Shown piece by piece: positions 9,516 through 33,966 of a stretch of 42,985 bases of DNA. The notes beneath the pieces were generated by a model that was given only the letters and a program-made list of their open reading frames with translations, did no database searches and was not told where the DNA came from. Position 1 is the first letter of the stretch; the number at the start of each line of letters is the position of its first letter. The stretch is from Heterotrichella gracilis (lineage: Eukaryota; Sar; Xanthophyceae; Tribonematales; Xanthonemataceae): positions 1-42,985 of the forward strand of contig JAULBX010026841.1 in assembly GCA_032358255.1 (NCBI GenBank), read 5' to 3'. Position numbers and translations under genes: made by a program.

Positions 9516-10589
9516 TCAATCCATCACCTTATCCTTCGTATACTTTCTCCATTTTTCCAACACCGCTTGCATGTCATCCGGAATCTCGCTATCGAAAAAT
9601 AATTTTTCTCCGGTAATGGGATGTGTAATGCCAAGTGTCTTGGCGTGTAATGCTTGTCGTGGTAAAAGCGTAAAACAATTTTGAATAAATTGTTTGTATT
9701 TGGCCGAGTTGATTCCTTTTAAAATAACATCTCCTCCATATTCATTATCGTTAAATAAAGGATGACCGATGCTTTTAAAGTGTACTCGGATCTGATGTGT
9801 TCTGCCGGTTTCTAATTTACATTCCACCAAGGTTATGAATCCAAATCGCTCCAGCACTTTATAATGTGTAACTGCATGCTTGCCATGCTCACTGCCTTCC
9901 GGAAATGCGTACATTTTTTTTCTGTCTTTTAAATCACGTCCAACATTGGCAACAATGGTACCCGAATCTTCTTTCAGATCGCCCCAGCAAATAGCCACAT
10001 ATTTGCGATCCATGGTACGGTCGTAAAAATCTTTGGCCAATCGGGTCATCGCTAATTCTGTTTTAGCGATGATAATAATTCCGGACGTATTTTTATCAAT
10101 ACGGTGCACTAAACCCGGACGTTCGAGATACAGATCGTTATTTAATTTTGTTTTAGTGGTTGGCAGATTTTTGAAATGATAGATGAGGGCATTCACCAAA
10201 GTTCCTGTGTAATTGCCATAAGCAGGATGCACCACCATGCCTGGCTTTTTGTTTACCAAAGCAATGTAATCATCTTCAAAGGTAATGTCGAGTGGAATGT
10301 TTTCAGGTAAAATTTCGGTGCTCCGAGGTGGAACAGTTAATACGATCGAAATTTCATCTAAGGGTTTTATCTTGTAATTTGATTTAACTGCTTTCCCATT
10401 CACCAAAACAAAACCGGCATCACAAGCATTTTGAATTTTTGTGCGGGTGGTATTGGCTACGCGAATCATGATAAATTTATCAATTCGCATACTTACCTGG
10501 CCTTTTTCTACCTTTATGTTATGGTGTTCAAATAGGGCTTGTTCATCGTCAGCATTTAGATCTTCCTGTTCTTCTTCAAATTCTATCAT
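9516..10589 (-). CDS. rluD: RluA/RluD-family 23S rRNA pseudouridine synthase
   Basis: The 357-residue enzyme has an N-terminal S4 RNA-binding domain (about residues 33-85, MRIDKFIM...DAGFVLVNGK) and a RluA-type catalytic domain with the signature GLVHRIDKNTSG. Asp165 in HRID is the catalytic nucleophile. It isomerises uridines in 23S rRNA; RluD-like specificity (helix 69) is inferred from the S4 domain and length. It is last in a minus-strand group with PASTA and T9SS genes and starts 9 bp after the T9SS gene stop. Confidence 0.9.
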   Translation of the reverse strand: MIEFEEEQEDLNADDEQALFEHHNIKVEKGQVSMRIDKFIMIRVANTTRTKIQNACDAGFVLVNGKAVKSNYKIKPLDEISIVLTVPPRSTEILPENIPLDITFEDDYIALVNKKPGMVVHPAYGNYTGTLVNALIYHFKNLPTTKTKLNNDLYLERPGLVHRIDKNTSGIIIIAKTELAMTRLAKDFYDRTMDRKYVAICWGDLKEDSGTIVANVGRDLKDRKKMYAFPEGSEHGKHAVTHYKVLERFGFITLVECKLETGRTHQIRVHFKSIGHPLFNDNEYGGDVILKGINSAKYKQFIQNCFTLLPRQALHAKTLGITHPITGEKLFFDSEIPDDMQAVLEKWRKYTKDKVMD

Positions 10590-24700: not shown

Positions 24701-24793
24701 GGTTAGGTGGATGAGTGGCTGAAATCACCGGTTTGCTAAACCGACGTACGGTGTTAAGCCGTACCGGGGGTTCGAATCCCCCCCTGACCGCCA
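24701..24793 (+). tRNA. tRNA-Ser (anticodon GCU)
   Basis: Acceptor GGTTAGG pairs with CCTGACC and is followed by discriminator G (24790) and an encoded CCA (24791-24793). The anticodon loop is TTGCTAA with GCT at 24735-24737 (codons AGC/AGU). A long class II variable arm (GTACGG paired with CCGTAC) and GGTTCGAATCC in the T arm confirm serine. An intrinsic terminator follows, and an integrase gene begins 245 bp downstream. Confidence 0.97.
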
Positions 24794-25038: not shown

Positions 25039-26283
25039 ATGCAAACCAATTTATCCATACTTTTTTTCATAAAAAGAACAAAAGCTAACCCAAATGGACT
25101 TGTTCCTGTTTATATGCGCGTAACAATTAACGGTCAGCGTATTGAAATGGCAACCGGAAAAACAATAGATCCTGAGAAATGGATCGCAAAAGCTTGTAAA
25201 GTAAAATCGGGCTCGGAAGAGGCTCGCGTCGTAAATCATCACCTTGATCAACTTCGAAAGAAGGTTTTCGACTACCAATCAGAATTAATGCACTTAGGCC
25301 AACCAGTCAATTTTGATAATCTGAGAAACAAACTCTTAGGCAAAGAAACCAAGAAACATTCGCTGGTTTCCATTTTTGAAGAGCATAACAAACAAATGAA
25401 GGCGTTATTAGGCAAAGAATTTGCTCCCGGTACCTTAAAGCGATATGAAACCACTTTAAAGCATCTAAAGGAATTTATGAAACTAAAGTACAATGTTTCA
25501 GATATCGACATTCGCAATATTAACCTCGGGTATATTACTTCTTTTGAATTTTATCTTAGAACCGAAAGAAATTGTGGAAATAATGTATCCGTAAAGTATA
25601 TAAAGAATTTAGGTAAGATTATTCACAATTGCATTGCGAATGGCTGGATTGATAAAAATCCCCTGGCCAATTTCAAATCCAAAACCCGAGAAGTTGAAAG
25701 GGTATTTCTGAATGAAGAGGAGTTGCAAGCTATTATTGACAGAACTTTTTCAGCATTTAGACTTGATCAGGTACGTGATATTTTTGTTTTTAGTTGCTTT
25801 ACCGGTTTGGCATATGCTGACGTAAAAAAACTTGATAACTCCATGTTGGTAAAAGGTATTGATGGGGACGACTGGATCTATACGACCCGTCAAAAAACAG
25901 AATCTCAATCCAACATCCCCTTACTCCCGACTGCAAAGGCAATTCTTGAAAAATACAAGAATGATCCACAGTGTAATAACAAAGGGCTACTCCTGCCTGT
26001 CCTTAGTAATCAAAAACTAAACGCGTACTTGAAAGAAATTGCCGATCTATGCGGCATTCAAAAAGAACTCACCTTCCACACCGCCCGGCATACTTTTGCA
26101 ACTACAGTAACTTTAAGCAATGGTGTGCCAATAGAAACTGTGAGCAAGATGCTTGGTCATAAGGATCTTAAGATTACTCAGCATTATGCTAAAATTGTTG
26201 ATCGCAAGGTGAGTGATGATATGAGGGTTTTGAAACAGAAGTTTGCTTTGAAAAGTGTGGAGAAGGATTCGATGGTTAGTTAA
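25039..26283 (+). CDS. Tyrosine recombinase (CTnDOT-type integrase)
   Basis: The 414-residue integrase has an arm-type DNA-binding domain (about 1-95), a SAM-like core-binding domain (about 105-210) and a catalytic domain (about 215-405). Catalytic residues are Lys286 (TRQKTES), His347 and Arg350 (FHTARHTF), His374 (MLGHKDLK) and Tyr383 (QHYAK). The position of the first catalytic Arg is Ala258 in TGLAYADV, a substitution known from IntDOT-like integrases of Bacteroidota conjugative transposons. It lies just past tRNA-Ser and points into the element, ending 42 bp before the first attC-like half-site. It lacks integron-integrase features, so it is not an obvious cassette recombinase. Confidence 0.93.
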   Translation: MQTNLSILFFIKRTKANPNGLVPVYMRVTINGQRIEMATGKTIDPEKWIAKACKVKSGSEEARVVNHHLDQLRKKVFDYQSELMHLGQPVNFDNLRNKLLGKETKKHSLVSIFEEHNKQMKALLGKEFAPGTLKRYETTLKHLKEFMKLKYNVSDIDIRNINLGYITSFEFYLRTERNCGNNVSVKYIKNLGKIIHNCIANGWIDKNPLANFKSKTREVERVFLNEEELQAIIDRTFSAFRLDQVRDIFVFSCFTGLAYADVKKLDNSMLVKGIDGDDWIYTTRQKTESQSNIPLLPTAKAILEKYKNDPQCNNKGLLLPVLSNQKLNAYLKEIADLCGIQKELTFHTARHTFATTVTLSNGVPIETVSKMLGHKDLKITQHYAKIVDRKVSDDMRVLKQKFALKSVEKDSMVS

Positions 26284-26324
26284 ATGGGGTTCTGAGATTG
26301 GATTGACTTGTGCAGTAACTTTCT

Positions 26325-26331
26325 GTTAGAT
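26325..26331 (-). repeat. attC-like half-site at the end of the cassette array
   Basis: On the plus strand GTTAGAT followed by GC (on the minus strand GC then ATCTAAC, matching RYYYAAC) lies 9 bp beyond the stop of the last minus-strand cassette gene. It sits where the R'' box of an attC site would be, but the rest of the hairpin is not recognisable, so the last site seems truncated or worn. Confidence 0.4.
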
Positions 26332-26339
26332 GCAGAATT

Positions 26340-27011
26340 TTAATTATTAAATACTACGTCTGGCCAGAATCTGTCTTTTAGGGTTTCAAAGATCTGAGTC
26401 AAAGACCAAACAGGAATTTCAGATGATATAGGGTCTTTTGTGTCCTGATGAAATGTCGTCATAACAAAAGAACCAGTAATAAATCTTTCGTCTGAGAAAC
26501 TTATTAGATTAATTGCTGAAGCTTGCAAAGTCATAATGTTGTCAGACTTATAAGGGTCCGTTAATGCAAAATGTGCAGCTACTTTATTTCGCCACTTTAT
26601 TACTTCTTGCATTTCAGTTAGTTCCTTCATATAATTGTCACAAAATGTTTTTATTGCCTGAGTATTAGTGTTAATCTCCATAAGATTAATTTTTCCAGTT
26701 TCAACGCCAACAATATAACCTGTCAATCGGGCGTAATTACAGACTGAAGTCGCAAACCAATGATAGAATGAAGGAAGATGATGTTGAAAATCTTTTGGAA
26801 TATAATCACTGTCACCAAACATAAATACATTTCTTCCTTTAAAATTCGCAGCAATACTAAGTTCCATCGGTCGAACAGTATTATACAAATAAATAAGTCC
26901 AATTTTTAGGTGCTGAAGGGTATTAATTTCATTCTGAAACTTAGTATAGTCTACCGAGACGTTTGCTACTTTGTCGACTACTAATTTTTCGGTCATTGTA
27001 AATTTTGCCAT
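26340..27011 (-). CDS. Cassette gene 5: protein with HEPN-like motif, unknown
   Basis: I place the start at the ATG at 27011 (223 residues). The longer frame to 27077 runs through the attC-like site and is unlikely to be coding there. The ATG overlaps the site end (GTTAATG), so the gene begins at the cassette junction. The protein is soluble and alpha-helical; WRNKVAAHFALTDP near residues 141-154 holds an Rx5H pattern as in HEPN domains. A conserved-looking WSLTQIFETLKDRFW lies near the C-terminus. HEPN proteins are often RNases, but with a single motif this is only a hint. It is last of the five minus-strand cassette genes. Confidence 0.6.
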   Translation of the reverse strand: MAKFTMTEKLVVDKVANVSVDYTKFQNEINTLQHLKIGLIYLYNTVRPMELSIAANFKGRNVFMFGDSDYIPKDFQHHLPSFYHWFATSVCNYARLTGYIVGVETGKINLMEINTNTQAIKTFCDNYMKELTEMQEVIKWRNKVAAHFALTDPYKSDNIMTLQASAINLISFSDERFITGSFVMTTFHQDTKDPISSEIPVWSLTQIFETLKDRFWPDVVFNN

Positions 27012-27103
27012 TAACGTATCGCGAATTTGCACCGTTTTTTGCTTGTCCAAGTTATGAATTTGAGCGCTAACCAACAAAAAATGGAGCGAATTTGCTGTTA
27101 GGT
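27009..27103 (-). repeat. attC-like site A (diverged, 95 bp)
   Basis: On the minus strand the site runs from ACCTAAC (27103-27097, matching RYYYAAC) to GTTAATG (27015-27009). It keeps the T6/A6 inner stem and the CTAACC segment of sites B-D but is longer and has two GCGAATTTGC boxes (27021-27030 and 27085-27094 region) that can pair with each other. It lies immediately 3' of the CPBP cassette gene. Confidence 0.55.
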
Positions 27104-27138
27104 GCTAGTGCCACACAAAGTTTTGTGTCGTCAATTTG

Positions 27139-27729
27139 TCAAAACGGTAACCAATATGGTGAACTATTATAAAGAGCGTGAAGTCCAAATGCATAAATAA
27201 AACCATAATTAATTCGCATATATCCAGCTGTCAAACCGAGAATAAGTTGTGGTAAAGTAATAACAGGCGCCAATAAAATGTTATAGGAAGAAGGTCTATA
27301 ATTATTTAGATGAATGAATGCAAAGAGTATGCAGAAGACATAAAATATCAATCGGAAATGTTTTGTCCAAAATGAGTTGATTCGTTTACTTATTTTTTCT
27401 TTGCTTATAATTAGATAAAATAAAAAAGCGCCAATAATAGCAAATGATATTCGTGAAACAGGAAAGGAACTCATTTCATACATTGGACTGTCGAAGAAAG
27501 TCTTGCTAATGAATTTATAAGAAAAAAGCGCGAAACTAATCGATAAGAACAAAGAAGAGAATTTTAGTGGGAGTCTGAATGTAGATTCCTCAACTAATGG
27601 AATGAGAAATACCGAAAATAAAAAGAAATATACTGGTCCAAGTTTTTGTTGCCATTCAAATAGTTTGGTTGTAGGCATGGGTTTAACGAAGTAAACGTTA
27701 AAATAAAAAAATAACAGAGAAAAAGTCAA
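27139..27729 (-). CDS. Cassette gene 4: CPBP-family intramembrane metalloprotease, start damaged or atypical
   Basis: The 196-residue, multi-TM protein has all three Abi/CPBP motifs: VEESTFR (Glu47, Glu48, Arg52), FAFIH (Phe136-His140) and GLHALYN (His184, Asn188). The family includes CAAX-type proteases and bacteriocin-immunity proteins. The first codon here is TTG at 27729, inside a transmembrane helix whose coding frame continues upstream to about 27795 without ATG, GTG or TTG. A 36-codon ORF in another frame (27869-27759) leads into it, so a frameshift near 27760 is likely. Alternatively translation begins at TTG or at the ATG at 27678. The gene is bracketed by attC-like sites A and B. 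Confidence 0.7.
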   Translation of the reverse strand: MTFSLLFFYFNVYFVKPMPTTKLFEWQQKLGPVYFFLFSVFLIPLVEESTFRLPLKFSSLFLSISFALFSYKFISKTFFDSPMYEMSSFPVSRISFAIIGAFLFYLIISKEKISKRINSFWTKHFRLIFYVFCILFAFIHLNNYRPSSYNILLAPVITLPQLILGLTAGYMRINYGFIYAFGLHALYNSSPYWLPF

Positions 27730-27758
27730 TGTTATAATAAGAACAACTAAAAGATCGG

Positions 27759-27869
27759 TCAGTTTGTGAATTGTCGTCTTGTTGTCTGTCCGATTGGTTT
27801 AACAATGAAGCGTCCGATGTCACTCAGTTTTGTGAGATAATATTTAGGATTGATTAGTCTTAATGGCAT
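27759..27869 (-). pseudogene. Possible frameshifted N-terminus of the CPBP cassette gene
   Basis: From the ATG at 27869 a 36-codon frame reads MPLRLINPKYYLTKLSDIGR and ends in TGA at 27759. The CPBP frame overlaps it and continues without a start codon, so a one-base slip near the end of this ORF would join a soluble N-terminus to the first membrane helix. It could also be a separate short leader peptide. Its upstream boundary is attC-like site B. Confidence 0.4.
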
Positions 27870-27913
27870 GCCTGTCTGTTTGTCTGGCGTATTGCACCTT
27901 ACGTAAGTTTTGC

Positions 27914-27994
27914 GGCTAACCGCTGTTTTTTGCTTTGTCAAGTTACACATTTGAGTGCTAACCCGCAAAAAATGGAGCGAATTTACTGTTAGGT
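27914..27994 (-). repeat. attC-like site B (81 bp)
   Basis: On the minus strand the site runs from ACCTAAC (RYYYAAC, exact) to GTTAGCC (GTTRRRY, one mismatch). Read on the plus strand, CTAAC (27916-27920) pairs with GTTAG (27988-27992), GTTTTTTGC (27925-27933) pairs with GCAAAAAAT (27965-27973), and an inner hairpin GTTACAC/GTG-C-TAAC (27942-27962) has a single bulged C. Nested stems with an extrahelical base are the hallmark of attC. It lies 38 bp 3' of cassette gene 3. Confidence 0.65.
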
Positions 27995-28031
27995 GCTTTA
28001 CGCCACACACAGTTGATCATTCCTTCGTCCG

Positions 28032-29252
28032 CTAATTTGTCTTGACAAACTTTTTTGTCACAATACCAAACTGAGTTTTTAAATGAATTTCAAAAAGACC
28101 GGACTCAAGTTCTGATGTCTCGATAATGATTGAATTATTTTTTTGAATGACTTGACCGTTTTGAATATTTTGTCCAAGGCAATTACTAATACTAAAAGAA
28201 CTGATGTCCGCATCATTAAAACCGGAAACGGATAAATTGCCTGATGTTGGGTTAGGAAATAAATTAATGTTATCTGAGAGATTTTGCAATTTGTCGAAGG
28301 CAACATAATTCGTACTAATAGTTACAACAACGGTGTCCCATTTTAAAGGGCTACAATCTAGTTCCTGTCTGACCATATAGGTCGATGTGGTTGTTGGTTT
28401 AACCCAAATGCCGGAGATAGTGTCAAGAGATGTTGTCATGTTTGGAAGTTTATACCAAATACAACCGGGGTCAATTGCAAAGTCAGGCTGTCTGCCAATG
28501 AATAAACTATCACCTAAATATATCGTGGTGTCTTTGCCGGCATAAGCTGGAAGGTTGAATTCTACACAACTTACGTCGTCTATATTGGCATCTGTTCCGT
28601 TATAATAATTTGGATTTGGCATAAAAGTGTTTGTTAAATTGGCACTTTTAAAATTACCGAGCACTAAGTATTTTTCATTGCCCGTAGCAACAAATGTCCC
28701 TGTAACTGATACCCAATTTAAAGTGTCAGAAATAATATTATTGGTAGGATTTTGTATTTGCGGTGTTAAAAAAGTTAATGGAAGGCCGTGGCAACTAATT
28801 GTGTCTAGGGAAGAATCGGCAAAATGTGCTCCGTAGGAATCTATTGCAACATAATTATTGCCATTATTAACAAAAAACTTAACACAATATGTTTTATTAG
28901 CCTGCAATGGAGCTTTCAATCTATTTCTTGGATACATCCAAAGGAAAAAGGTTGGATGCCAAAAATTTCCAACGGCAAAATTATTACCTGTCCTTGGGTA
29001 CTGAAAACCCTGCACATATGGAGCATTCGATAGCGGAGGGATTATACTCGCTAATAAGAGATTATTGCATGAATAATTAGCTGAATCAATAGGTTGCCAA
29101 TATTTAGTTGCATTAAAAGCTCCGAAGGTTAAATTAGAAAGTAAAACTTCAAAACTGCCATCGTTAACGTAATTGCCGATTTTCTGTCCTCGAATATTCA
29201 AGAACGAAAGTCCGAAGAAAAGATAAAAGAATATTATTTTAATTGTCTTCAT
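28032..29252 (-). CDS. Cassette gene 3: T9SS-sorted surface protein, variable-domain paralog 1
   Basis: The start is set at the ATG at 29252 (406 residues) because MKTIKIIFFYLFFGLSF aligns with the starts of its two paralogs; the upstream ATG at 29279 adds ten non-homologous residues. After the signal peptide comes a GNYVNDGSFE motif, a GYQYPR-like GFQYPRTG segment and a D-D-V box (about 25-230), together resembling the jelly-roll ligand-binding domains of Bacteroidota surface proteins. The last 170 residues (from LPAYAGKDTTIYLGDSLFIG) end in a type A sorting domain (NLFPNPTSGNLSVSGF). This C-terminal half is nearly identical to the paralogs; the N-terminal domain is not. Confidence 0.85.
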   Translation of the reverse strand: MKTIKIIFFYLFFGLSFLNIRGQKIGNYVNDGSFEVLLSNLTFGAFNATKYWQPIDSANYSCNNLLLASIIPPLSNAPYVQGFQYPRTGNNFAVGNFWHPTFFLWMYPRNRLKAPLQANKTYCVKFFVNNGNNYVAIDSYGAHFADSSLDTISCHGLPLTFLTPQIQNPTNNIISDTLNWVSVTGTFVATGNEKYLVLGNFKSANLTNTFMPNPNYYNGTDANIDDVSCVEFNLPAYAGKDTTIYLGDSLFIGRQPDFAIDPGCIWYKLPNMTTSLDTISGIWVKPTTTSTYMVRQELDCSPLKWDTVVVTISTNYVAFDKLQNLSDNINLFPNPTSGNLSVSGFNDADISSFSISNCLGQNIQNGQVIQKNNSIIIETSELESGLFEIHLKTQFGIVTKKFVKTN

Positions 29253-29298
29253 TTGGGTTGTCTTCCGTCCAGCTGGCACATTAATTATTAAGTTTTGC

Positions 29299-29379
29299 GG
29301 CTAACTGCCGTTTTTTGCTTTGTCAAGTTACACATTTGAGTGCTAACCCGCAAAAAATGACACGAATTAGCTGTTACAG
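29299..29379 (-). repeat. attC-like site C (81 bp, mutated R'' box)
   Basis: This site has the same length, T6/A6 stem and inner bulged hairpin as site B. The plus-strand right end is GTTACAG instead of GTTAGGT, so the R''-like box is worn. It lies between cassette genes 2 and 3, 38 bp 3' of gene 2. Confidence 0.62.
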
Positions 29380-29416
29380 GTAGGGCGCCACACGCAGTTG
29401 ATCATTCCTTCGTCCG

Positions 29417-30646
29417 CTAATTTGTCTTGACAAACTTTTTTGTAACGACACCAAACTGAGTTTTTAAATGAATTTGATAAAGTCCAGACTCAAGCTCTGA
29501 TGTCTCGACGTTTATTAAATTATTTTTTTGAATGACTTTACCGTTTTGAATATTTTGTCCAAGGCAATTACTAATACTAAAAGAACTGATGTCCGCATCA
29601 TTAAAACCGGAAACGGATAAATTGCCTGATGACGGGTTAGGAAATAAATTAATGTTGTTCGATAGATTTTGTAATTTGTCAAGACCAACATAATTAGTAC
29701 TGACGGTTACAACAACGGTGTCCCATTTTAAAGGACTACAATCTAATACTTGTCTGACCACATAGGTCGATGTCGCAGTTGGCTTTACCCAAATGCCAGA
29801 GATAGTGTCAAGAGATGTTGTCATGTTTGGAAGTTTATACCAAATACAACCGGGGTCAATTGCAAAGTCCAACTGTCTGCCAATAAATAAACTGTCACCT
29901 AAATATATTGTCGTGTCTCTACCAGCATAAGCAGGCAAGTTCACTTCTATAACACTCACATCGTCCATACAAACATCTGTACCACCGACAGCGGTTGTTG
30001 CAGAATTTATTATAACAGTACCAGTCCCAATTTCACTTTTAAAATTACCTAATACCAAATACTTTTCATTACCTGTAGCAACAAAAGTCCCAGTTATAGG
30101 AATCCAATTTAGGGTATCAGTAATTATTCCTGATTGGTTACTAACTTGAGGAGTAAGATATGTTAGCGGCATTGAGGCATTCTTAATAGTATCTATTGAA
30201 GAGTCACCAAAATAAATGCCATATGAATCTATCCCAATCCCATTAACATTCGCATTAACTACGTAATATTTTGCACAATAGACTTTATTCTCAGTTAAGT
30301 TTTGTTTTAACTTAGTTTTAGTATAAGCTCTGTAATAAACGCCCCCACATTGACTTTGAGTACAATAATAAGTGCCTAAATTAAAATTACAACCAGTTCT
30401 TGGATATTGATACCCTTGCAAATAAGGAGCATTCGCTATGGGAGGGATTGTTGTTACTAAATGGCCAGAATATCCAATTGAATCAATTGGATACCAGCCC
30501 TTAATAACATTTACATAAGAAGAAACCGAATTAGTGTTTAAACTTTCGAAACTACCATTGCTTACATAATTTCCAATTGCCTGTCCGCAAACCAAGAACG
30601 AAAGTCCGAAGAAAAGAGAAAGGAATATTATTTTAGTCGTCTTCAT
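29417..30646 (-). CDS. Cassette gene 2: T9SS-sorted surface protein, variable-domain paralog 2
   Basis: The 409-residue paralog starts MKTTKIIFLSLFFGLSFLVC, then GNYVSNGSFESLN and GYQYPRTGCNFN, a Cys-containing variable domain, the box DDVSVIEVNLPAYAGRDTTI, and the shared C-terminal half with a type A sorting domain (NLFPNPSSGNLSVSGF). The variable domain differs from paralogs 1 and 3 in sequence and in Cys positions (GTYYCTQSQCGGVYYRAY). The constant part differs by only a few residues. Secretion by the type IX system and ligand binding are inferred. Confidence 0.87.
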   Translation of the reverse strand: MKTTKIIFLSLFFGLSFLVCGQAIGNYVSNGSFESLNTNSVSSYVNVIKGWYPIDSIGYSGHLVTTIPPIANAPYLQGYQYPRTGCNFNLGTYYCTQSQCGGVYYRAYTKTKLKQNLTENKVYCAKYYVVNANVNGIGIDSYGIYFGDSSIDTIKNASMPLTYLTPQVSNQSGIITDTLNWIPITGTFVATGNEKYLVLGNFKSEIGTGTVIINSATTAVGGTDVCMDDVSVIEVNLPAYAGRDTTIYLGDSLFIGRQLDFAIDPGCIWYKLPNMTTSLDTISGIWVKPTATSTYVVRQVLDCSPLKWDTVVVTVSTNYVGLDKLQNLSNNINLFPNPSSGNLSVSGFNDADISSFSISNCLGQNIQNGKVIQKNNLINVETSELESGLYQIHLKTQFGVVTKKFVKTN

Positions 30647-30693
30647 TTAATTTGTGTGACGTCCAGCTGGCACATTAAATTATAACGTTTTGC

Positions 30694-30774
30694 GGCTAAC
30701 TGCCGTTTTTTGCTTTGTCAAGTTACACATTTGAGTGCTAACCCGCAAAAAATGGAGCGAATTTACTGTTTGGT
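30694..30774 (-). repeat. attC-like site D (81 bp)
   Basis: CTAAC (30696-30700) and GTTTGGT (30768-30774) bound the same nested stems as sites B and C. The inner stem is extended here (CCGTTTTTTGC with GCAAAAAATGG, one G-T wobble). One base of the outer box is mutated (GTTTG for GTTAG). It lies 37 bp 3' of cassette gene 1. Confidence 0.62.
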
Positions 30775-30811
30775 ACTTTACGCCATTCACAGTTGATCAG
30801 TCCATTGTCCG

Positions 30812-32020
30812 CTAATTTGTCTTGACGAACTTTTTTGTCACAATACCGTACTGAGTTTTTAAATGAATTTGATAAAGTCCGCACGCAAGCTCTGATGTCT
30901 CGACGTTTATTAAATTATTTTTTTGAATGATTTTACCGGATTGAATATTTTGTCCGTGGCAATTGCTAATGCTAAAAGAACTGATGTCCGAAGAACTGAA
31001 GCCGGAAATGGATAAATTGCCAGATGTCGGGTTAGGAAATAAACTAATGTTGTCCGAGAGATTTTGCAATTTGTCGAGGCCAACAAAATTAGTACTGACA
31101 GTTACAACAACGGTGTCCCATTTTAGAGGACTACAATCTAATTCTTGTCTGACCACGTATGTCGATGTCGTTGATGGCTTAACCCAAATGCCAGAGATAG
31201 TGTCAAGAGAAGTTGTCATGTTAGGAAGTTTGTACCAAACGCAACCAGTGTCAGTTGCAAAGTCAGGCTGTCTGCCGATGAATAAACTGTCACCTAAATA
31301 AATTGTAGTGTCATTGCCAGCATAAGCTGGAAGATTAACTTCAATCACACTAACATCATCAAAATAATATTCGCTCGCAACCCAAATTGTCGCAAGAACG
31401 GAATCAACTATTGTCACATTGGTACTTGTTTCACTTTTGAAATTACCAATTACTAAATACTTTTCGTTACCAGTCGCAGTAAACGTACCTGAAATTAATG
31501 TCCAATTTAAGGTGTCGGTAATAAATATATTAGATGGACTCAAGATTTGTGGTGACAAATAAGGAATTGCAATATTGCATTGACTAATTGTGTCAATAGT
31601 GTTATCACCTAAGTAGATTCCAATATTATCTATCGCATGTGAAGAATGCTGATCTAGTGCGACATACATTTTAACACAATAGATTTTTCCAACTTTTAAA
31701 GTCTGCTTCAATCTATTTTTTGGATATCCTCTCCTTATAACAGGACAGCCATTACTACAATTTAATAATGTAATGGCATAGTTAGTTCCTGATTTTGGTA
31801 ATTGATATCCATAGTTATTCAATGGAGTACTAAATAATTCTAAGAAAAAGTATGATATACTGTCAGGAGAGCTCCAATATTTTGGAAAGGGACCGTTAAC
31901 GGTTGTGTAAGTTTCTTCTAAACTTCCATTACTAACATAATTCCCAATTTCCTGTCCAAAAGAATTCAAGAACGAAAGTCCGAAGAAAAGATAAAAGAAT
32001 ATTGTTTTAATTGCCTTCAT
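30812..32020 (-). CDS. Cassette gene 1: T9SS-sorted surface protein, variable-domain paralog 3
   Basis: The 402-residue paralog starts MKAIKTIFFYLFFGLSFLNS, followed by GNYVSNGSLEETYTT, a variable domain with GYQLPKSGTNYA and CVKMYVALDQ, FDDVSVIEVNLPAYAGNDTT, and the shared C-terminal half ending in a type A sorting domain. It is the array gene farthest from the integrase and would be first in the cassette order. Its upstream flank lacks the full attC-like hairpin seen before the other genes but has GTTAGAC (matching GTTRRRY) 8-14 bp before the ATG. Confidence 0.86.
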   Translation of the reverse strand: MKAIKTIFFYLFFGLSFLNSFGQEIGNYVSNGSLEETYTTVNGPFPKYWSSPDSISYFFLELFSTPLNNYGYQLPKSGTNYAITLLNCSNGCPVIRRGYPKNRLKQTLKVGKIYCVKMYVALDQHSSHAIDNIGIYLGDNTIDTISQCNIAIPYLSPQILSPSNIFITDTLNWTLISGTFTATGNEKYLVIGNFKSETSTNVTIVDSVLATIWVASEYYFDDVSVIEVNLPAYAGNDTTIYLGDSLFIGRQPDFATDTGCVWYKLPNMTTSLDTISGIWVKPSTTSTYVVRQELDCSPLKWDTVVVTVSTNFVGLDKLQNLSDNISLFPNPTSGNLSISGFSSSDISSFSISNCHGQNIQSGKIIQKNNLINVETSELACGLYQIHLKTQYGIVTKKFVKTN

Positions 32021-32027
32021 TTGAGTT

Positions 32028-32034
32028 GTCTAAC
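32028..32034 (-). repeat. Possible core site at the 5' end of the cassette array
   Basis: The minus strand reads GTTAGAC, an exact GTTRRRY match, just upstream of the first cassette gene. A recombined attI or the R' end of a lost attC would sit here, but no flanking hairpin is evident. Confidence 0.3.
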
Positions 32035-32407
32035 GTCCGCTGACGCATTACTACTAACTACCTTATACCCGTTATAATCCATCAGTTTTCTCACCCAAAG
32101 GTATGTCAATACCGAAACCGATAACGGTTTTTTAAATATATAACCATTTTCATAAACAATCAACTTTTAAACTAATATTATTAATGCCTTTGTTACTTAT
32201 GATGAAATTTATGTTTACTGATATCTAAATTTATTGTAATGACTTTATAATAATTCGACCGTCAAACACTTATCCCCAAAATCTCAACACTTATTTATCA
32301 TTCGATTCATCTGTTCTCTAAGCTGTATTATTAAGCCTTTAAGCTATCCTTATTTAACATCTTCCTGTTAATTAATTATTAAGTGATCAAAATCCTACTT
32401 TAGTAAG
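32035..32407. other. Gene-free stretch between cassette array and tetR
   Basis: This AT-rich 373-bp gap holds no ORF of note. It includes ATACCCGTTATAATCC at 32068-32083 and a TATCCCCAAAATCTCAACAC segment near 32272. By position it would be where an attI site and a promoter for the minus-strand array should be, but I found neither an IntI gene nor a convincing promoter. Confidence 0.4.
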
Positions 32408-32431
32408 TATACATACATTTGTGTTTGTATA
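32408..32431 (+). promoter_or_regulatory. Palindromic operator over the tetR promoter
   Basis: TATACA (32408-32413), 12 nt, then TGTATA (32426-32431) form a perfect 6-bp inverted repeat. The -7 box TACATTTG (32414-32421) lies inside it. A TetR-family repressor bound here would block its own promoter. The ATG is at 32449. Confidence 0.55.
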
Positions 32432-32448
32432 ACGCCTCTTACCCACTT

Positions 32449-33054
32449 ATGCGAAGAACTAAAGAAGACTCCTTAATTACTAAGGAAAACCTCATGGATA
32501 CCGCCCTTGATATCTTTAATCACAAGGGCTACTCAAACACTACCCTCGATGATATTGCTACTGGTGCAAATCTAACCAGAGGTGCTTTCTATTTTCATTT
32601 TAAAGACAAGGAAGACCTATTTCAACAATTATTATCGCGTGAGATGGGTTTTATCTCTAGTTTAATTGTGGAGAGTTTCGTTTCTTCTGGTGACGAAAAG
32701 CAACAATTGACTGATCTGATGATGAATCTGGTAGATAATTTCTATGAGAACAAACGTTTTCGGAATGTCATCCAATTAACCTGGTTCAGAACTGAAGTTA
32801 CTGATGACGCTAAAGTATTAGTCGACAAAACTAACCTCAACGAGTTTTTCATCGAAGAAGTTATAAAGCTCATCAAATCAGCCCAAAAAAAGGGTTTAAT
32901 AAGCAAGTCGCACGACCCTTTGCTAACCGCCATCCAATTTGCTATTCAAATTAACGGAACTTACCGTTTGTACTTTGTTACATCCAAATATTTGAAACGC
33001 AAAGTACATCTTCAAAATATTTTGAAGAAAGATCTGGAGCGATTGTTTCTCTAG
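32449..33054 (+). CDS. TetR/AcrR-family transcriptional regulator
   Basis: The 201-residue protein has the TetR N-terminal helix-turn-helix: ITKENLMDTALDIFNHKGYSNTTLDDIATGANLTRGAFYFHFKDKEDLF (listed here by its motif; residues about 10-58). The C-terminal domain is of the AcrR type and binds an unknown ligand. The TTG at 32419 that would extend the frame lies inside the -7 element, so 32449 is chosen. It has its own promoter with an overlapping palindrome, so autoregulation is likely. Its targets could include rteC (82 bp downstream) or the cassette array. Confidence 0.87.
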   Translation: MRRTKEDSLITKENLMDTALDIFNHKGYSNTTLDDIATGANLTRGAFYFHFKDKEDLFQQLLSREMGFISSLIVESFVSSGDEKQQLTDLMMNLVDNFYENKRFRNVIQLTWFRTEVTDDAKVLVDKTNLNEFFIEEVIKLIKSAQKKGLISKSHDPLLTAIQFAIQINGTYRLYFVTSKYLKRKVHLQNILKKDLERLFL

Positions 33055-33102
33055 TTGCAACAAAATCTCCAAAAAATTTCAGTATTAACCTTATGAGTGA
33101 TT

Positions 33103-33120
33103 AGACTTTTAATTAAGTCT
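33103..33120 (+). promoter_or_regulatory. Palindrome upstream of rteC
   Basis: AGACTT (33103-33108), a 6-nt spacer TTAATT, then AAGTCT (33115-33120) ends 15 bp before the rteC ATG. It is a candidate operator; its protein is unknown. Confidence 0.4.
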
Positions 33121-33135
33121 GGACTTTAAATTTTT

Positions 33136-33966
33136 ATGTTAAATCGTATTGATAAATTATATCAGGATCTTGAATTCCAATTAAACTCAATTGCGCATCA
33201 GGAACCTATTATTTTAAAAAGAATGGAGCGTTCAATCATTTTATGTGAAAGTGCTTTAGAAGAATTAAAACTACTTTTCACCTCTCGAAAGATAAAATCC
33301 ATTGAGGAAGAAATTGCTTTCTTTAAATCAGCTAAGCCCCGCTTTTCGGCCCTGCTAATTTTCCATGTAAAAATGCTGTCCATCGAAAAAGAAAAATCGC
33401 CGGGGAATAAATTGGCTCAATTAAAGCTTTTAGAAAAAGAACAGCATGCAATAGATCTCTATTTTGAAAAAAATAAAGATTTCTATGCGTATTATCATTC
33501 AGGTTCAGTATCTATGGATGACAAGTATTTTGTTCGTAATAAGGTTGATGCTCACATGGTCATTGATGAATATTATTTTCACATGGATCGTTCCTTCAGT
33601 ACCTTTCACGATATCAAAATTGCCAGAATTATTGCTAATAAAAGAATCAGTGAAATGATCAACGAAGAACGTTTACGATTGGAATCGAAACCTTCTACTG
33701 CTGATAACTCTGAAAGTCCAATAGTCTGGACAGACAACAAGGTTGCTCTTATTGAATTGTTGTATGCGTTAAATTCAGCTGGTACGTTTAATCGGGGCAC
33801 TTTAGAATTAAAGGAATTAGCTAAAGCCTTTTCGAAAAACTTCAATGTGGAGCTTGGTGATTTTTATCGCACCTGGTCTGAGATCAAGATACGTAAAGAA
33901 CCTACCAAATTCCTTGATACTCTTAAATTGATTCTTGAAAACAGAATAAGGTCAGATATGGAATAA
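33136..33966 (+). CDS. rteC: RteC-domain regulator of element excision
   Basis: The 276-residue protein matches the RteC family of Bacteroidota integrative elements. Recognised segments are the N-terminal helical EEEIAFFKSAKPRF, then MDDKYFVRNKVDAHMVIDEYYFHMD and SFSTFHDIKIARIIANKRI, and a C-terminal winged-helix-like part (KVALIELLYALNSAGTFNRG). In CTnDOT, RteC is a DNA-binding protein that activates excision genes. The genes that normally accompany it, an excisionase-like HTH and further mobilisation genes, follow partly here. It supports the view that this region is an integrative element. Confidence 0.88.
   Translation: MLNRIDKLYQDLEFQLNSIAHQEPIILKRMERSIILCESALEELKLLFTSRKIKSIEEEIAFFKSAKPRFSALLIFHVKMLSIEKEKSPGNKLAQLKLLEKEQHAIDLYFEKNKDFYAYYHSGSVSMDDKYFVRNKVDAHMVIDEYYFHMDRSFSTFHDIKIARIIANKRISEMINEERLRLESKPSTADNSESPIVWTDNKVALIELLYALNSAGTFNRGTLELKELAKAFSKNFNVELGDFYRTWSEIKIRKEPTKFLDTLKLILENRIRSDME

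Follow-up and report, generated by a model that had tools for sequence, protein, structure and literature searches.

A probable integron relic of a Bacteroidota class with a dedicated recombinase outside the IntI type

We analysed a window that comprises the entire contig C433 (42,985 bp) of the source assembly G000 (68.5 Mb, 903 contigs), in which five minus-strand genes are separated by attC-type hairpin sites. We are confident that this array is a decayed integron, belonging to a class in Bacteroidota that uses a dedicated recombinase which is not of the IntI type. In intact members, this enzyme would be a tyrosine recombinase related to Xer and IntI that is devoid of the IntI additional domain and has a HARP-like N-terminal domain. 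Its gene would adjoin attI, which lies ~103 nt behind the stop codon, and it would insert and remove cassettes by exchange at GTT, involving attI and the attC that closes each cassette at its 3' end. In the window, the integrase would have been lost save for its last codons and attI degraded, one cassette with its site would have been tripled by tandem duplication, with sites B-D no longer folding fully, and the array would have been truncated near 26327, where an element integrase follows a tRNA-Ser gene. From its head to its end, the array consists of the following features.

32150..32200, minus strand: decayed C-terminal end of the dedicated integrase, ISNKGINNISLKVDCL and a stop codon, against VSNKSIQKVVSPFDTL and a stop codon in the integron on contig C222 (frame reading, DNA profile)
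32047..32149, minus strand: attI remnant ending GGGTATAAGGTA/GTTAGTAG, recombination GTT at 32058-32056 (nhmmer)
30812..32020, minus strand: cassette 1 gene, 402 amino acids (aa), type IX secretion sorting domain
30680..30774, minus strand: attC-type site D, R'' AAC from 30770, R' GTT from 30686, two arm types, outer stem unformed
29417..30646, minus strand: cassette 2 gene, 409 aa, paralogue of cassette 1
29285..29379, minus strand: attC-type site C, R'' AAC from 29375, degraded R' (TTAATAAT) from 29291
28032..29279, minus strand: cassette 3 gene, at most 415 aa, paralogue of cassettes 1 and 2
27896..27994, minus strand: attC-type site B, R'' AAC from 27990, degraded R' (GTAAGGTGC) from 27902, shifted
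27139..27729, minus strand: cassette 4 gene, 196 aa, weak Rce1/CPBP-like match under the Pfam cut-off
27009..27103, minus strand: attC-type site A, R'' AAC from 27099, R' GTT from 27015
26340..27077, minus strand: cassette 5 gene, 245 aa, no clear family
26320..26333, minus strand: truncated R'' box (GCATCTAACAG) 3' of the last gene, where the array ends

Four related 95-nt copies were found on the minus strand (27012-27106, 27903-27997, 29288-29382 and 30683-30777), with B, C and D being 77%, 69% and 78% identical to copy A. These copies and the gene order confirmed what a first-pass annotation had read from the letters, namely that four related minus-strand sites lie each 3' of a minus-strand gene, and the inner hairpin with one bulge that it described was seen in the folds of B-D. 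Comparison with intact relatives showed that the R' box lies further 3' than GTTAGCC, the 3' end proposed there, which is internal in B-D. The sites are therefore ~90 nt rather than 81 bp long, and the CTAAC/GTTAG pairing was not borne out as the recombination stem. A truncated fifth R'' near 26327 was missed there; its stop-to-AAC distance of 13-14 nt is consistent with the stop-to-R'' distance in the cassettes of relatives (median 16 nt). A search of Rfam returned one tRNA and nothing else.

The equal length of B-D, noted earlier, held, but it does not reflect independent sites. Three 300-nt copies of 90% identity, spaced by 1385 and 1395, enclose sites B, C and D, and these repeats take in the terminal parts of the three paralogues, whose products carry type IX secretion sorting domains. 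Since B-D lie inside larger repeats that span gene ends, they represent one unit, tandemly duplicated, and only A and the B-D group count as independent sites. Site A is the sole site in the window with a full bottom-strand fold (predicted, -13.7 vs -7.5 kcal/mol), and in sites B-D the 5' and 3' arms belong to different types. Three of the four complete sites look defective and are products of the tandem duplication.

That the sites form a family was upheld when more copies were sought in the genome. Site A, searched against the assembly at the DNA level, had 11 matches, four in the window and seven elsewhere, on C222, C435, C43, C518 and C111 (best outside match, E 1.2e-26). Contig C222 contains a complete integron, in which a 374-aa tyrosine recombinase is followed by attI and then by cassettes, with the array directly behind the recombinase gene and in the same orientation.

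C222: attI GTT at 93916; six cassette-end sites at 93366, 92685, 92026, 91354, 90610 and 89096

The site at 90610-90522 is of the window type and 90% identical to A over 90 nt, and apart from a XerD no other gene of the recombinase family was found in G000. The claim of an array without an integrase therefore stands, with same-family sites forming arrays behind the recombinase on C222 and contig C433 holding no intact integron integrase of either kind, only an arm-binding integrase. In an integron cassette, the bases after the start GTT derive from the same circle as its attC, so that the cassette start is expected to resemble its own R'' rather than the opposite end of the site next to it. 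On C222, the own-end match was 7, 7, 8, 8, 6 and 6 of nine positions, with same-site values of 5, 3, 4, 2, 2 and 2, and the four cassettes of C43 gave 6, 8, 8 and 8, with same-site values of 4, 3, 2 and 2.

We extended this analysis to relatives by scanning genome contigs with 24 aligned proteins of the recombinase family. At least 567 stretches were confirmed, and the best 80 were kept as loci, to which all 80-locus counts refer; 78 are titled Bacteroidota, and the others are one metagenome-assembled genome (MAG) each of Azoarcus and Ignavibacteria. Sites were located by a finder that looks for AAC[AC] to GTT[AG] with complementary arms. Downstream of the integrase, 130 attC-like sites were found in 328,561 bp (3.96 per 10 kb), as opposed to 9 in 695,352 bp upstream (0.13 per 10 kb) and 8 in the reversed downstream sequence used as a control. 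The mean match over nine positions in 81 neighbouring pairs was 6.80 for the own cassette, 3.57 for the same site and 3.18 for random pairs, and six or more positions matched in 71/81, 10/81 and 305/4784 pairs, respectively. Read from the sequences, a cassette start that matches its own attC end box is the signature of G/TT recombination. Position 10 seldom matched (3%), with A opposite C in 64 of 78 pairs, which corresponds to a G.T wobble on the bottom strand. The bottom strand of attC is known to fold better, and in predicted folds it was the more stable strand in 100 of the 130 sites, by a mean of 2.32 kcal/mol (shuffles, -0.29).

Site-ended intervals were retained as cassettes when the end match was at least 5 of 6 and the size at most 3500, which left 103 of 130, with a median of 878 bp. 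The longest open reading frame (ORF) ran in the array sense in 91 of these and antisense in 4, and there was no ORF of 40 aa in 8; Pfam and PADLOC were run on 75 of the 91 array-sense ORFs. In 39 of the 80 loci the contig broke off less than 2 kb beyond the integrase on the downstream side, compared with 4 loci on the upstream side, a pattern expected from a repeat array.

Comparison of loci provided evidence for the movement of cassettes. A cassette of 1443 bp is common to Flavobacterium denitrificans (L042) and Bacteroidia MAG.246 (L090) at 94.3%, from GTT to GTT. The match begins at GTTAGTGGC, which in L042 follows attI immediately and in L090 follows other sequence, and it ends at GTTATG of its attC, with different flanks. 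The gene encodes MerT and heavy-metal-associated domains, and a third genome (L027) has the first 139 bp of the cassette at 99.3% before its contig ends. Two complete Chryseobacterium plasmids have a common backbone (two pieces, 86.4% and 89.7%) up to base 10124, which is the GTT of attI, and carry different genes beyond it. L035 and L098 share a gene over 1296 bp at 79.6%, box to box, and do not share the attC body. Among the 60 pairs listed of 170, most had shared sites, not shared genes. In every sequence test made, then, intact arrays behave as integrons.

Two further observations concern the site bodies. The L035/L098 gene lies between matching boxes with unrelated attC bodies, as if the bodies were exchangeable, and window sites B-D, with their two arm types, resemble this mismatch. 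In the array of one Chryseobacterium plasmid (L281:10124-17853), a site with the same start and an inverted flank occurs in four copies, one of them in a ~170-bp unit with no room for a gene.

We then considered the identity of the recombinase. The distance from GKKDR to HxLRH is 64 residues in 20 family rows, 63-64 in 12 rows of a lower branch, 65-71 in Xer proteins and 105 in 8 IntI rows, and ~42 residues are skipped when the C222 recombinase is aligned with VchIntIA (2a3v). By these alignments the IntI additional domain is absent from the family recombinase. Since the domain that defines IntI was tested for and is absent, the arrays are not IntI integrons. The C222 recombinase reached 210 bits against the IntI model (cut-off 265). 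Its best NCBIfam match was NF040815 (220.9 bits, cut-off 220), a general model which also fits the XerD of G000 (221.7 bits) and whose name, 'site-specific tyrosine recombinase/integron integrase', is carried in public records; the best PDB sequence matches were 5hxy (174.1 bits) and 4a8e (171.6 bits). The first-pass assignment to the IntI kind was not sustained, with the C222 enzyme lacking the additional domain and G000 yielding no match to canonical IntI over the cut-off, so that such an enzyme in G000 was rejected. C331 was likewise rejected as an integron integrase, being XerD (338 bits, cut-off 329.6).

In a tree of 58 rows, IntI formed one clade (100/100) and the recombinase family another (97/91), and these two and the lower branch were grouped apart from Xer and XerA (98/94), with the two XerA rows outside this group on long branches; the tree has long branches, covers these five groups and gives no firm order within family, lower branch and IntI. 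A predicted structure has a small alpha/beta domain in its N-terminal 70 residues (predicted local distance difference test, pLDDT, 77-87 per block), although the model as a whole is modest (pLDDT 70.6, predicted template modelling score, pTM, 0.38) and the fold comparison spans residues 95-356. The dedicated recombinase would perform the cutting of attC and attI and, going by the predicted folds, would use attC as a folded bottom strand.

Relatives of the enzyme were also seen in other sequence sets. Viral contigs gave 80 relatives at 39-51% identity, none aligning before residue 82, and plasmids of Acinetobacter, Klebsiella and Aeromonas encode recombinases that share 48-50% identity with the C222 protein, starting at about residue 126-138, one of which is annotated TnpF.

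The pattern ATA..GTT[AG] was found behind the integrase stop codon in 73 of the 80 loci, at a median of 103 nt (range 70-117), and in 107 of 3524 random 80-nt windows. The motif TAnnTTTG, which we take to be the -7 type of Bacteroidota promoters, occurred at the integrase stop in 42 of these 73 loci and in 90 of 3518 random 50-nt windows; 37 of the 42 motifs sit 78-86 nt before GTT, and the motif may well be the cassette promoter. The attI sequences vary and the palindromes are kept, with a fold z below -2 in 42/73 as compared to 5/73 random stretches. Since the attI palindromes fold alike on both strands, this suggests that they are double-stranded binding sites.

A nhmmer profile was built from the 73 attI regions, with or without the integrase end, and used to search for attI at the head of the window array. 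With the integrase end, it matched 32199-32047 at 17.6 bits (E 1.8e-4), a match that carries a large composition bias, and without it at 12.5 bits (E 0.0079). Other matches at the 17.6-bit level were the C222 attI, counted twice through two overlapping loci. The best score was 7.5 bits in 40 shuffled windows and 8.4 bits in 640 kb of real, unrelated sequence taken from upstream of other integrases, and the remnant ends in the same way as attI in L102 and L093. The earlier description of the array as CALIN-like was therefore right in kind, and missed the attI remnant and integrase tail (32199-32047) that head it. On contig C518, a weak attI-like match (L012:901-998, 8.6 bits, E 0.1; shuffled windows up to 7.5) was seen upstream of the sites and on the same strand as them.

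At E<=1e-70, the recombinase family was present in 120 of 199 genomes in the family of Flavobacterium limicola (gene presence, not arrays) and in 87 of 296 genomes of a phylum sample (gene presence, lower-scoring members included), where 'family' and 'phylum' are groups as set by the search tool. In 8 of 20 lower-branch regions, at least one neighbouring pair had an end match of 6/6.

The window array lies within the following surroundings.

24701-24793, plus strand: tRNA-Ser
25039-26283, plus strand: tyrosine integrase with arm-binding and SAM_5 domains, near tRNA-Ser
32419-33966: TetR and RteC genes beyond the array

The tRNA-Ser, the integrase and the TetR/RteC genes are probably one end of an integrative element, although a second copy of the tRNA-Ser end, sought in the window, gave nothing beyond 14-nt matches. 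The integrase at 25039-26283 was rejected as the enzyme of the array, given its arm-binding and SAM_5 domains and its position beside tRNA-Ser. Bacterial contigs of G000 reach 874 kb among those seen, and the assembly may be mixed, or may represent a eukaryote together with accompanying bacteria.

Several results weigh against, or limit, the reading of the window array as a decayed integron of this class. The window end match was 2 (D), 3 (C), 2 (B), 7 (A) and 2 (truncated box) of nine, the match to the own R'' being kept by only one of the five cassettes, at site A, and sites B-D are predicted to fold nearly equally on both strands. On C111 (L014), the site finder misses sites that BLAST detects, and the end match, read by eye, was seen in one of three intervals. 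The finder was written after reading three loci, and the pair counts, which draw on related sites, are not independent. Six of the 20 lower-branch regions have no site, two of them being shorter than 1 kb, and six have one to three sites, none matching. HARP (PF07443), known from the annealing helicase SMARCAL1, reached at best 22.7 bits (E 7.3e-5, cut-off 25), in a lower-branch member, and matched at all in 4 of 24 full proteins and 2 of 10 N-terminal segments, always below the cut-off; the HARP-like domain may help to bind folded attC DNA. A tblastn search with intact recombinases did not detect the integrase remnant, with nothing above chance there. Finally, canonical IntI was above the cut-off in 84 of the 296 genomes of the phylum sample, and among the IntI genomes with flanks fetched 4 of 7 show at least three site-like hairpins. 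The phylum is thus not free of IntI, and both kinds occur. The degraded attI, the poor end matches, the folds of B-D and the cut-off array together indicate that the window array is a relic and probably immobile.

The weak signals in the window may alternatively indicate that the array is a fragment brought into the tRNA-Ser element by ordinary recombination, which never had its own integrase and whose attI match is due to chance. The position of the array between the tRNA-Ser element integrase and the TetR/RteC genes, the modest and compositionally biased attI score and the failure of the protein search would fit such an origin. However, the match lies exactly at the array head, in the right orientation and after the last integrase codons, and neither the shuffled windows nor the 640 kb of real sequence came near its score, so we regard a captured fragment as improbable.

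Marginally less probable still is that the linked recombinase is not the array enzyme and that a canonical IntI elsewhere, or XerC/XerD, moves the cassettes. The frequency of IntI in the phylum sample would allow this, one of the ten first genomes holds both a canonical IntI and a family recombinase, and the additional domain is called essential for integron function in the available text of PMC8138268. Against it, neither G000 nor Flavobacterium limicola (G001), which have arrays or the integrase, shows an IntI over the cut-off or at 1e-60, attI lies at a fixed distance behind the recombinase gene in 73 of 80 loci, and the sites are on the downstream side of that gene.

It is very improbable that the sites are terminator or REP-like (repetitive extragenic palindromic) repeats, with gene duplication and repeat insertion mimicking cassettes, even though B-D arose by tandem duplication and the sites are hairpins behind genes, because the sequence at a cassette start agrees with the R'' of its own attC instead of with the opposite end of the site it adjoins, gene and site are transferred together with GTT borders, and the plasmids diverge at the GTT of attI. 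The same end matches, unit transfer and plasmid divergence led us to reject stand-alone repeats (REP or miniature inverted-repeat transposable elements, MITE) whose copies move without genes; movement of the sites alone, raised in the first-pass annotation, is contradicted by the gene-plus-site units.

Beyond the decayed integron in the window, we favour on balance the view that Bacteroidota hold a second widespread integron class beside IntI, perhaps a state that precedes the additional domain, in which the HARP-like domain maybe reads folded attC. This class would have been overlooked because its integrase is without the domain that defines IntI. Integron integrases have been selected in surveys by the additional domain or the intI patch, according to the available part of PMC2426708, and the text of PMC9024848 available to us gives one complete integron in Bacteroidetes proper for IntegronFinder 2.0, in Salinibacter. 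The portion of PMC8565304 at hand does not treat integrons in Bacteroidetes, and a literature search that covered no preprints and few subscription papers found no description of such Bacteroidota integrons. Should the class be active, a large system for gene capture has escaped notice in a phylum that is dominant in water and soil, the need for the additional domain in attC recombination becomes directly testable, and the recombinase family would be a sister lineage for the origin of IntI.

Clusters of attC sites without an integron integrase are called CALIN. The window resembles these in having several attC-type sites and no intact integron integrase, and differs in having an integrase tail and an attI remnant in front of its cassettes; the term is used in the part of PMC9024848 consulted. 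XerA-like recombinases (NF040815) provide the best NCBIfam and PDB sequence matches of the C222 recombinase, although the tree sets the XerA rows apart from the group that unites the family, the lower branch and IntI (98/94). An integron-like subgroup of tyrosine recombinases in which the insertion of the additional domain is not fully conserved appears in the accessible sections of PMC8138268, which, unlike the present work, describe no Bacteroidota arrays. With IntI integrons, the class shares an integrase gene, attI, a promoter motif, one-gene cassettes in one orientation, attC with RYYYAAC/GTTRRRY-like ends and a predicted bottom-strand fold, and the GTT recombination point. Unlike in IntI integrons, the recombinase here lacks the additional domain (64 vs 105 residues), scores below the IntI cut-off and has a HARP-like N-terminal domain, attI has short palindromes, and the integrase and array run in the same direction (C222, 80 loci).

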